Source of the DNA: an uncultured bacterium
GTDB taxonomy: Bacteria; Verrucomicrobiota; Lentisphaeria; Victivallales; UBA1829
Direction: 5' to 3'
Assembly (NCBI GenBank): GCA_949292215.1
Contig: CASEYW010000018.1
Coordinates: forward strand, 1-46,207
DNA length: 46,207 nucleotides
The notes below the pieces were generated by a model. The model was not told the DNA's origin and did not search any database. It worked only from the letters and a program-made list of their open reading frames with translations. Below, in pieces: positions 10,733 to 37,583 of this stretch (position 1 is its first letter; every line of letters begins with the position of its first letter). Both the position numbers and the translations under genes were made by a program.

Positions 10733-13700
10733 TCAGGGAAGAAGCACGGTATCCATCCATTTCCCGGGAGCTTTTGAATCACCGACTCCCGAAGTGAGTT
10801 CCAGATAGCCGATCCGTTTCCCATGCTCGTGCAGATTGACAATGACACTGCTGCGCATCTGGCTCCCTGCACGAAGCTGGAACGGACTGACTGACTGTCG
10901 AGGGAATGCCGCTTCATACACGGTTCTCCCCGGTTCCGAACGGACCGCGAACTTCACTTCCGGCGCGATGCCGGGCGCTTTCATCAAACTGTCATACACG
11001 GCGCTGGAGCCGGTCCGGCGAAAAACAAGGGGCTTTCCGGCGACAACGCCGAGACTGTATTCAAAATCATCGTCGCCGAACGCCAGATCGTCCGCCTTCC
11101 CGTTGCAGAGCGGGTCCAGACAAACTTGGAAACTGTCGTATTTCCAGAGGTTTCCCGGTTTTCCGGCATCCGGATTGGCATTCAGACTCTCTTTGAATAC
11201 GGTGACGGCCAGATAGAAGAAATTATCATCCCATGCGTAGCGGAGTTCGGAACGGATCTTCTTTTCTTTCTCACCCCAGAGAGCTTTCTCCAAAACGACC
11301 GCGTTGTTCTGATTGAGCACGACCGGCATTCCGGCAGGCCAATCGGTCAGATCGCCGTCGATCGTCAGAGCTCTGGTTGTTTTCGGTACCGTGACCGCGG
11401 CAAGATTCAGCGTGATTTTTTCTTTTTTCCCATCCGGCAGGAGAATGGAAAGATCAATTTTGCGGGCAGCGGTCGCAACCGGCTCCCGGAGTCGGAAAGA
11501 GACGCTGCGGGATTCTTCCGGATTCAGAACGGGAAGAACCTGTTCAGCCGGACCGTCAATCATGGTATGGTCTTCAACGCGAATCCGGATTTTATCCATT
11601 TTTTTCGTTCCGAGATTGCGGCAGTTGACGCGAAACACGTTGCATGCGATAACCTGAGCTTCCGTCTGAAGTTTTTTTCCGAAAGTCTCGCGGATCTCCG
11701 CCCGACGGATCAGCGCTTCGAGTTCGGAAGCGGAAAGCGAGGATTCCAGATAGACCGGGAATTCGCCGACGGAGAAGGATTTCTCCGGATTCCATCGGCT
11801 TCCTACCATATCATAGAGACGGACTTTTTTCGCATCATCGGCTTTGAGCTGAAAAACAGCATCACCTCCGTTGAATTTCCAGAGGACGGCGGTGCGGGAA
11901 TTCCCTTTGTCGAAGAGGAAGGCGCGGTAGTTGTAACCGAGTTTGATTCTTCCGGCAGTCGCCCCTTCCCCGAGCCGGTCAGCCGCGTTGCGCATGGCAA
12001 AGAGAAGCGGAGCCGGCATCACCGCTCCACCGGTCTCACGATTCCCCATATAAAAGCAGTTCCAGCCGATACCGGACTGCCACATTGAGATTGCAAAGTG
12101 GTTATAGGAACTCAATCCGTTTCCGAATCCGAGCAGCATATTCCGGAGATCGCGAGCAGAGGAGATCCGGACATAATTGATCATTTTATTGCCGGGCAGA
12201 AGCGGCGGCTGAACGTTTCCGGCTTCTGTGGCATAGTGTTTCAGTTCCGGTTTGTAACGGTTGATCAGACGGCGAACCGCCTGGACATCTTCTCCATAAT
12301 CCGGGGCTTCCGGTTCCTTCCGGTACGGATGTTCGGTAACGATATCCAGGTATTCGGCGCCGCCGTCTGCCAGAGCCCCTTCCAGCCAGGCAAAATCGGT
12401 TCTGCATGCTGCAGGTCCAGCGATTTTCACTCCGGGAGCCTCTTCCCGGACAATCTTGCTCATCGCAGCAATCCATTTCCGGTTTTCCTCAAGAGACATG
12501 AATAAATTTGCCTCATTTTCCGTTTCCAGAACTGTGATTTTCGATCCATATTTCCGAATCCATCCGCGGAACTCCTGAAGGAGCTGCTCCATGGTCAGAG
12601 AAGGATTTTTTCTGCGCTGGGATGTAATGCTGTAATTCATCAGGACATCGAATCCCTCATCAAAGAGAATCGCGGCATTCTGAAACGCGGATTCCCGGTG
12701 CGACGACGAAGCACCCCCCATCCGGACCATGCCGATTCCGAACCGCTTCAGGAAGGGGATCAGCTCCCGGACATTCTGTCCCGATGGAACCTCAAGCGAA
12801 AAGCGTTTGTTCAACCCGGATTCGGCTTCTGCCATGCCGAGATAGAAGGTCCGTTCCGAGAGTTTCCCATCCGGAGTCCGCACAGAGAAGATCAGGTTGA
12901 ATGGTCCCCGAAGGTTTTCCGGCAGTTGAATGGAGAACGATTCCCTGCACAGTTTCGCCTTCTTCAAAACAGGATAACGCGTTCCGGAACGCATAACAGT
13001 CCGACCGAAAAAATCTTCCAGCCGATAAGAAAGCCGCGCTTTCACTCCCGAATCGGAAACACCTTCCAGTTCCAGTTCGGCACGGATAGGCTTTCCGGGT
13101 GAGTAAAGATGATTGTCCTGGTCAAGAAGAGCTTTGCGGAAGTAAACATTGGAATGGTCCCGGAACTCCCCTTTTCCCCCGAGAAACACTCCGGCATTGT
13201 CCATCCAGACGGTCGTATTATGCGGGATCGTGACTTTCGGAATTACCAGTCCTGGCGGGGTATGAAAGGTCTGAAGGAGATTTCCCTGCGTCCGAAATTC
13301 CTTTCCGCCCTGTCCCCATACGGGAACATAGAGTTCATATTTTTTCCACGCGGTGCCGATCCGGACCGGTTTGACATTTCCGATTCCATTTCCCAGAGTC
13401 AGCTCCAGCGCGGCTTCCGTGGGACGATCCGCCTTCAGATAAATGGAAAAGCAGACAGCTTTCCCCGGAACATACGGAACCGGTTCAAACAGAAAGATAC
13501 CTCCACGAGTGGAAGGAAGACGTTTGGCATTGATACGGAAACGATAGGAATACTTCCCCTCATAGACCTGTTTGGAATCCAGAGCAAGATCCACGGTATA
13601 AGGATCTTCCCATTGCAACTTCCAGTCCAGATATTTCCCTGTCACTGCATTTTTTTTGAATTCAAACGGCAGGTACATGGTCCCGTCAAAGCCGTTTTCC

Positions 13701-36207: not shown

Positions 36208-37583
36208 GAAACTTCTCCTGCATAAATGATGTTTGATTCTTCTTGTCTGCGAGCCCAGAGCGCAGTCTGTTTGCGGATTTTCAGAGAGGTACGGACCATC
36301 TCCGCGAGTTCCGCGGTTCCAGTGTCAATATCCTCGTCCCCCGCCAGCAGATTGGCGATTCCCTGGCAAACCAGATTATAAATTTCAGCGGAATCCAGAT
36401 GATAATGAGAACACATTTTCGGGGTTTCGCTGAGAAACAGCACATCGCGGGGATCGGTACAGTCGATCGTGGCGCCGACCGCCGACTTGCGGATCGGGAT
36501 TCCGTAATTCCAGCGGGCGAGACAGTTCTGGAATTCCGGAGAAAGCAGGAACTTCAGCAGGCGCGCCGCAAGTTCCGGCTCCACGCATTCCCGGCGGACG
36601 CAGAAGACATCCGTTGCCTGCACATTCACATCCAGTCCGCCTTCGATCCGCGGCAGTGGTGCGGTATCCCAGTCTTCGAATCCGGCTTTCGTAATAAGGC
36701 TCCGAAATTCTCTCGGCTCCAGCAGCATCGCCGCGCGCCCGGAAAGAAAATGATGAACAAAGTCATCCGGATAGCGATATTGGTGAATTCCCATTTCGCT
36801 GCGCAAACTGCGATACAGACGCAATCCGCGACGAGTTTCCGGACTGTCGATCTTTACGCAATCCGCTCCGTTCGGATCAATCAGGCAGCCGCCCGCACGA
36901 CGGACGATGTTGATCCAGTTTTGTGTCTGATTGTGCCAGCAGAAAATATCTTCCGGAGGCAAAATGCGGCGCAGTCTCCGGACACAGGAGATCAGATCGT
37001 CCCAGGTCCATCCGGGTTCCGGCTTCCGGCAGCCCGCCTGAATGAACAGTTTCGGATTGTAAAAAATGACTCGGGGAGAAAAGATGATCGGAACACCGAT
37101 CAGTCGTGACCCGGTCCGGAAGGCGTCAAGCGGCGTCTGGAAGAAATCGTCCTGATCCGGAAAACAGGAGGCGAAAATACCGGAAAGATCCAGATAGCGG
37201 TCATGATGAGCCTGAATGTAATGAGTCGTCTGAATTTCAAATGTCCCGCCGGTGAAACGTTCGCTGACCCAGACTTCCGGAATCTCCCGATGGATCAGCT
37301 CCCGCAAATCGGAAAACCAGGTCAGACCGCTGCGAAACACAGTCAGATTCTGCTGTAAAATTCGCTTTTGCCACTGCTTCTGCACGAAGGTGCCCTTTCG
37401 GGCGAAGGTTTCCAGAACCCCCTCCCGGACCAGAATCTCAATGGCATTCTGGATGGTTGGAAGAGAGATCCCGGACCCATGCAGGAGTTCACGGGCACCC
37501 GGCAGCTTTTCACCGGCATTGAGTTCTCCGTTTTCCAGCATTCCGAGAATGTGGTTCCGTACAAATGTGCTTTTGTCTTCCAT
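36204..37583 (-). CDS. GntR-type regulator fused to an extracellular solute-binding domain
   Basis: The 459 residues begin with a GntR winged helix (about 1-70: NGELNAGEKLPGARELLHGSGISLPTIQNAIEILVREGVLETFARKGTFV). Instead of the usual UTRA or FadR sensor, the rest (about 75-430) resembles a sugar-binding protein of ABC transporters (SBP_bac_1): PIIFSPRVIFYNPKLFIQAGCRKPEPGWTWDDL and the FLSGRAAMLL segment. There is no signal peptide, so it is a cytosolic sensor. The ATG at 37583 has GAGGA upstream; an earlier TTG does not. It is coupled to the pilin, with the beta-helix protein downstream. It probably responds to a galactose-containing oligosaccharide. Confidence 0.85.
   Translation of the reverse strand: MEDKSTFVRNHILGMLENGELNAGEKLPGARELLHGSGISLPTIQNAIEILVREGVLETFARKGTFVQKQWQKRILQQNLTVFRSGLTWFSDLRELIHREIPEVWVSERFTGGTFEIQTTHYIQAHHDRYLDLSGIFASCFPDQDDFFQTPLDAFRTGSRLIGVPIIFSPRVIFYNPKLFIQAGCRKPEPGWTWDDLISCVRRLRRILPPEDIFCWHNQTQNWINIVRRAGGCLIDPNGADCVKIDSPETRRGLRLYRSLRSEMGIHQYRYPDDFVHHFLSGRAAMLLEPREFRSLITKAGFEDWDTAPLPRIEGGLDVNVQATDVFCVRRECVEPELAARLLKFLLSPEFQNCLARWNYGIPIRKSAVGATIDCTDPRDVLFLSETPKMCSHYHLDSAEIYNLVCQGIANLLAGDEDIDTGTAELAEMVRTSLKIRKQTALWARRQEESNIIYAGEVS

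Follow-up and report, generated by a model that had tools for sequence, protein, structure and literature searches.

Three pilin modules at one locus

The stretch of DNA analysed here, which we call the window, is the first 46,207 nucleotides of contig CASEYW010000018.1 (C18 below) in the draft genome of an uncultured bacterium of the order Victivallales (assembly GCA_949292215.1). Three times in this window, the gene of a small pilin-like protein (pilin, for short) stands directly before the gene of a larger signal-peptide protein, its partner. A sequence-only reading had picked out these three modules, together with the ATGA overlap that joins regulator and pilin genes in modules 2 and 3. 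Both observations hold, and the same order is in fact found at dozens of loci in the part of the genome that was sampled. We envision, tentatively, that such pilins may act as adaptors for the export of the proteins encoded next to them.

The gene order across the genome

The source genome measures 4.93 Mb (89.7% complete, 7.8% contamination), and a first look at it gave 295 candidates for the Pfam family N_methyl, at least 150 of them over the cut-off (150 were scored). To follow the gene order we used a sample of 1.22 Mb, made of the window and of long continuous stretches of 13 contigs, these chosen from contigs where pilin hits had been listed, in which genes were called with a home-made caller and pilins were found by a pattern that includes glutamate at the fifth position. 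This sample holds 912 genes, of which 69 are pilins, and by extrapolation we estimate about 280 pilins genome-wide. Signal peptides were predicted with two home-made rules: a loose one, by which 287 of 843 genes are called secreted, cytoplasmic false positives such as Mg-chelatase included, and a strict one, added because of these false positives.

A co-oriented gene starts within 100 nucleotides downstream of 57 of the 69 pilins. In three cases this gene is another pilin; of the remaining 54, 50 encode a signal peptide by the loose rule, as against 122 of 361 other pairs, and 38 do so by the strict rule, as against 49 of 361 (p 1.5e-17). In 5000 shuffles, strict adjacencies of pilin and secreted protein numbered 5.1 on average and 15 at most, compared with the 38 observed. 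A second set, picked around pilin hits on other contigs, yielded 36 signal peptides in 40 genes (loose rule). Seen from the other side, 30 of the 51 strict-secreted proteins with at least 600 residues are encoded directly behind a pilin. The complete triplet of regulator, pilin and signal-peptide protein is found at 32 of the 69 pilins (loose rule, home-made profiles). The sequence-only reading had named pilins lying at random beside unrelated genes as the outcome that would sink its proposal; this is not what the sampled genome holds, nor what is found in a stretch of another genome of the order (G045, below).

One locus (L067:1629-4044) has three pilins in tandem, of 259, 257 and 257 residues, ahead of a single signal-peptide protein of 1231 residues. 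An apparent 1975-residue fusion of pilin and enzyme on another contig was rejected, being a pilin start that runs into an N stretch.

Table 1. Genes of the three modules and their surroundings in the window
Feature	Position	Strand	Pfam match
Module 1 partner, 1199-residue signal-peptide protein, weak CBM9-like C-terminus	10733..14332	-	
Module 1 pilin, 257 residues, DUF1559-type, prepilin motif FTLLE	14364..15137	-	
Module 1 operon, FAD-dependent oxidoreductase	15174..16508	-	PF12831, E 1.8e-103
Module 1 operon, alpha-L-rhamnosidase-type glycosidase	16505..18562	-	PF17389, E 2.5e-18
Divergent AraC-family regulator	18694..19527	+	HTH_18, AraC_binding
Module 2 LacI-family regulator	19630..20730	+	LacI, Peripla_BP_3
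Module 2 pilin, 218 residues, ATGA overlap with regulator	20727..21383	+	
Module 2 partner, 736-residue signal-peptide protein, polysaccharide-lyase fold	21400..23610	+	
Module 3 partner, 894-residue signal-peptide beta-helix protein	32668..35352	-	PF13229, E 7e-8
Module 3 pilin, 278 residues, ATGA overlap with regulator	35371..36207	-	
Module 3 regulator, fusion of a GntR head and a solute-binding domain	36204..37583	-	GntR 7-67, SBP_bac_8 151-369

Positions 37806-45306 of the window carry another sugar cluster, which contains no pilin and encodes a GH35 beta-galactosidase, an alpha-galactosidase-type protein, a DeoR regulator, a PfkB kinase, an L-fucose-isomerase-type protein and KduI/IolB proteins.

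Partners and regulators

The 54 partners are large, with a median of 1083 residues; those called by the strict rule have a median of 1076, compared with 320 for other strict-secreted proteins. Pfam scans covered the proteins that stretch borders leave whole, 45 of 54 downstream and 47 of 52 upstream. Among the partner matches listed (25 of 33 families, where one protein may match several), GH5 occurs 8 times, GH42 7, CBM9 6, CBM_4_9 6, GH39 5 and the GH2 N-terminal domain 4, with single cases that include GH16 and with two transporter-type proteins. A control scan of 45 proteins with a loose signal call, out of 179 eligible, gave three GH5, one GH71 and otherwise scattered, partly cytoplasmic families (among the matches listed, 25 of 103). 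We also considered whether the number of GH5 copies tracks that of pilins, and left this measure unused because several pilin-rich genomes (G006, G016, G045) have none or one.

On the upstream side, the matches listed (25 of 43 families) include GntR 23 times, Peripla_BP_3 22 times, LacI 9 times and HTH_18 once, along with some non-regulators. By home-made profiles, 36 of the 53 genes directly before a pilin are of GntR/LacI type, compared with 40 of 790 others. The 4-nucleotide overlap is also frequent at these junctions, at 16 of 53 as against 76 of 551 elsewhere. The module 3 regulator is a GntR-SBP_bac_8/SBP_bac_1 fusion; SBP_bac_8 is seen once among the 47 upstream genes scanned, where Peripla_BP_3 is usual.

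A domain of about 190 residues (WGFxD...GGWxDQGS...) recurs near the N- or C-terminus of 16 of 56 partners and in 6 of 787 other genes; examples are the partners at C87:76717, C68:4072, C34:56995 and C28:75130 of this same genome (G000). As a candidate docking domain it was set aside: its clustering on the tree of pilins is only mild (15 changes, compared with 19.7 when shuffled; 2 of 300), and that tree is poorly resolved. Small stand-alone partners, considered as minimal docking domains, were also dropped, three of them being cut by the end of a stretch or contig.

Co-inheritance of pilins and partners above chance

Within the genome, alike pilins accompany alike partners more often than chance predicts. 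This was followed in 84 cassettes, kept from 89 own-genome pairs once five with truncated partners had been left out, and pilins were called alike when their globular domains, with the conserved N-terminus removed, matched at more than 40 bits (39 pairs). Homologous partners have alike pilins in 21 of 337 pairs, where 3.8 are expected. The excess is found in full-length-homologous pairs (13 of 93, 1.05 expected, 0 of 5000 permutations) and in part-homologous ones (8 of 244, 2.7 expected, 51 of 5000 permutations).

In a subset of 50 cassettes, likeness of the pilin is linked to partner residues 26-225 (3 of 3000 permutations; 4 of only 5 such pairs), and there is no link to partner residues 226 to the end (758 of 3000) or to the adjacent or overlapping regulator (925 of 3000). 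Mere DNA linkage is thus argued against, because the pilin tracks the N-terminal part of its partner and not the regulator. Similarly, pilins are alike in 16 of 78 pairs that share the first 200 residues of the partner, compared with 5 of 259 that are homologous elsewhere; counted per 200-residue segment, 52% are alike for the N-terminal segment and 16% for the others, all segments lying above chance. The picture is the same with truncated partners included (13 of 94 and 15 of 317; 20 of 112 compared with 8 of 290; regulator 1203, partner N-terminal part 0 and rest 164 of 3000 permutations). A pair test on 52 of the 54 pairs (two are without the motif as written) gave a weak link, at 10-16 of 3000 permutations and a Spearman coefficient of 0.07.

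Spread among relatives

We looked for homologs of the three window partners across 137 genomes of the order, the window's own genome and locus being counted in each tally. The module 1 partner has matches in 15 of these genomes and the module 3 partner in 30. Of the testable loci, 17 of 19 for module 1 (29 fetched), 4 of 5 for module 2 and 15 of 26 for module 3 (30 fetched) have a pilin upstream, and with one exception (L161) these pilins end within about 110 nucleotides of the open frame of the enzyme. In 12, 4 and 3 of these loci for modules 1, 2 and 3, respectively, the globular domain of the pilin scores above every one of 49 background pilins. Over all 17 module 1 rows, pilin distances correlate with enzyme distances (5 of 5000 permutations).

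The order itself is kept in G045, of the same order, where 360 kb hold 23 pilins and a signal peptide is encoded by 10 of 11 close downstream genes, compared with 29 of 102 other pairs. In two pilin-poor genomes the figures are 6 of 7 compared with 9 of 45 (G036, where several of these are themselves pilin-like or GspK-like and most pilins stand alone or in pilin runs) and 2 of 3 compared with 6 of 20 (G008). Tight pairs are few in the small samples from three relatives at class or phylum level: none within 150 nucleotides among the 4 pilins of G194, 2 of 3 in G202 and 1 of 1 in G139, numbers too small for a claim that the cassette extends beyond the order. In G194 one pilin follows a LacI-type gene, and a 981-residue signal-peptide protein lies 161 nucleotides behind it. 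In a sample of 115 genomes from the phylum, at least 100 pilin candidates occur only in some genomes of this order and in two of the same class (family f10); others outside the class have 0-67. Numbers also vary within one family, f1, where N_methyl matches per genome run from 53 to at least 112 in genera g1-g4, from 9 to 14 in g6 and from 2 to 5 in g10, whose genomes measure 2.0-3.2 Mb.

Anatomy of the pilins

The window pilins match the prepilin motif TIGR02532 at 20.4, 18.4 and 20.5 bits (cut-off 16.3) and stay under the cut-off of Pfam N_methyl (17.8-18.0, cut-off 21.2). The model of pilin 1 (predicted local distance difference test, pLDDT, 89.6) has an N-terminal helix at residues 26-76 and then a strand-containing globular part, and the solved structures closest to it are pilus pilins with low Z scores, such as PilA4 (Z 5.6, root-mean-square deviation 3.4 over 120 residues). 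Foldseek gave no confident solved match for this model (best E 0.17), and from such missing structure-library matches we do not conclude that the globular part has a new fold. As for family membership, pilin 1 scores 28.8 for DUF1559 (PF07596, cut-off 23.3), pilin 2 22.8, and pilin 3 has no listed match. All three fall short of the GspG equivalog (25.6-29.6, cut-off 88.85), the GspH equivalog (20.2-23.5, cut-off 80) and the Verru_Chthon cassette protein D (TIGR02596; 17.7-23.2, cut-off 70 bits). In the wider set, 26 of 52 pilins carry an H-X9-D[GS] motif, which we take to be the mark of the H-X9-DG prepilin family.

Secretion machinery

Secretion machinery had been described as absent. Within the window this stands, and in the genome it does not: on contig C166, genes read as GspL, M, C, D, E, F, G, H, I, J and K follow in a row (D, E and F named from family hits, the others from order and size), with five pseudopilins of their own. 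This is the one complete type II secretion system (T2SS) locus found in the incomplete draft. Genome-wide there are matches to 14 GspE/PilB-type ATPases, 9 secretins, 8 GspF and 2 A24 peptidases (PF01478). Matches to secretin, ATPase, platform and peptidase families form a second group on contig C64, which we provisionally take for a Tad type, and other ATPase and platform genes resemble parts of a type IV pilus. The pilin-poor G008 (genus g6) still has a T2SS stretch, which we read as running from GspF to the minor pseudopilins.

How the pilins may act

To explain these results we propose that each pilin is a dedicated adaptor, likely delivering the protein encoded by its neighbour to this T2SS, a reading we hold tentatively, as a serious possibility that falls short of a probable one. 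A regulator of LacI, GntR or AraC type would sense a sugar and turn on pilin and enzyme jointly, as the observed gene order suggests. The enzyme is predicted to enter the periplasm by its own Sec signal, where the fast-evolving globular domain of the pilin could bind it, perhaps at its N-terminal part. The pilin, inserted into the T2SS pseudopilus through its conserved N-terminal helix, would then take the enzyme across the secretin, much as is proposed for TcpB and TcpF in a type IVb pilus. More tentatively still, the roughly 280 pilins could serve the pseudopilus as exchangeable subunits, each specific to its cargo and with its gene typically between those of a sugar sensor and of the one large polysaccharide-active protein that it exports, and the lineage could shuffle such cassettes around a single T2SS to gain or drop targets.

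The pilins could also remain with their partners outside the cell. If a pilin sat in a lasting pilus or pseudopilus and held its enzyme at the cell surface, the fibre would be a mixed, enzyme-bearing organelle. This seems unlikely to us: thousand-residue partners on every subunit may not fit the secretin, and no anchoring domain appears among the listed partner families (25 of 33), although no search was aimed at anchors.

Several observations weigh against the adaptor reading. Some concern the machine. Prepilin peptidase usually cleaves after glycine, and glycine stands at position -1 in 2 of the 69 pilins, asparagine being commonest (26); the gene read as GspG on C166 likewise lacks it. Processing of the pilins is therefore an assumption. 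In addition, the genes read as type IV pilus and Tad parts coexist with the T2SS, so that the export machine used is not fixed. The N-terminal focus was not reproduced in 17 module 1 homologs from several genomes (N-terminal 200 residues, 1949 of 3000 permutations; rest, 159 of 3000), and because the link is absent there we dropped N-terminal docking from a firm claim to a lead.

Other observations concern the pairing. In 18 of the 39 alike-pilin pairs the partners have no detected homology, and two module 1 enzymes (L192 and L193) are 49% identical with unrelated pilins. Both facts would be accounted for if the globular domain bound the neighbour's polysaccharide substrate near the cell, for capture or sensing, without touching the enzyme; so would the hyper-diversity of these domains, and glycan-binding minor pilins are reported in Streptococcus sanguinis (PMC9934059). 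We nevertheless regard such a role as rather doubtful: the Pfam scan found no carbohydrate-binding family in the window pilins, and the Foldseek search of the pilin 1 model gave no confident solved match.

Pairing also loosens between genomes. Among module 3 homologs, 11 of 26 lack an upstream pilin, the globular domain is shared by only 3, and the L161 pilin, counted as upstream, ends at least 344 nucleotides before the enzyme frame. G002 keeps a module 2 enzyme (74% identical) beside a mere pilin remnant, and the module 1 distance correlation is not clear over the 11 non-redundant rows (447 of 5000). Pilin swaps are frequent, and the pairing is not strict. The swaps and the loss in G002 would suit pilin and enzyme genes that are merely co-regulated, co-duplicated neighbours, the pilins serving a general pilus or remodelling the cell surface. 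In fact, pilin-like families are large elsewhere too, with 74 DUF1559 genes in Rhodopirellula baltica (PMC2754498). Even so, we think that simple neighbourhood is quite improbable, as it leaves unexplained why the order is kept over dozens of loci and in G045, and why the pilin follows the enzyme rather than the regulator. As for the idea that each enzyme has its cognate pilin, put forward by the sequence-only reading, co-inheritance above chance speaks for it, and a strict one-to-one form of it is weakened by the frequent replacements and by the loss of the module 2 pilin in a close relative. At the site of that loss, a natural one (G002 C17; L135:4550-5000, L202), open frames are kept by both neighbours, the LacI regulator upstream and the lyase downstream.

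Comparison with known systems

Cargo-binding minor pilins are already known. In excerpts of one study (PMC9565799), TcpB of Vibrio cholerae, a protein of 43.5 kDa with three domains, binds TcpF with a dissociation constant of 0.11 uM and does not bind CofJ, and both TcpF and CofJ dock on their minor pilin via an N-terminal segment. As far as those excerpts go, TcpB-TcpF and CofB-CofJ of enterotoxigenic Escherichia coli resemble our modules in that the genes of a pilin and of a Sec-signal protein are adjacent and co-oriented, there within one operon. They differ in number and place, one pair inside one pilus operon as opposed to dozens scattered away from the machine; in their pilins, the window pilins having 218-278 residues and not the large three-domain build with a lectin-like domain at the C-terminus; and in their cargo, the partners here being polysaccharide-active in type.

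The pilins share with the T2SS pseudopilins GspG-K a prepilin-type N-terminus with glutamate at position 5, and secreted hydrolases as likely cargo. Unlike GspG-K, the window pilins lie on C18, outside the T2SS locus on C166, beside their partners, and far under the GspG and GspH cut-offs. How a T2SS recognises its substrates is a long-standing question, which stays open because, to our knowledge, no common recognition signal of these substrates is known. Dozens of pilins in one genome, each paired with one secreted protein, would provide natural experiments on this question, in the form of paralogous enzymes whose pilins are alike or unlike, swapped or lost.

Large pilin-like families are known as well, such as those of DUF1559 type and the H-X9-DG prepilin proteins. 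The planctomycete DUF1559 (PF07596) families are similar in that pilin 1 scores over the family cut-off and in their high copy number; unlike here, the part of PMC2754498 considered describes no pairing with enzymes. Searches of an open-access library gave no description of a scattered, regulator-linked set of dozens of pilin-partner pairs.

Bacteroidota, for their part, have polysaccharide utilisation loci of the SusCD type. No SusC or SusD family is among those listed for the modules (in the window, and in 25 of 33 downstream and 25 of 43 upstream families; the whole genome was not searched). In SusCD loci, as in our modules, enzymes that degrade polysaccharides are encoded together with a regulator that responds to sugar; unlike there, a pilin here occupies the place of the binding and transport pair. 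If the pilins are adaptors, a single exporter could handle many polysaccharide-degrading proteins, in a set that is open to change, and the system, with its one exporter and many adaptors, would be a pilin-based counterpart of the SusCD loci of Bacteroidota.

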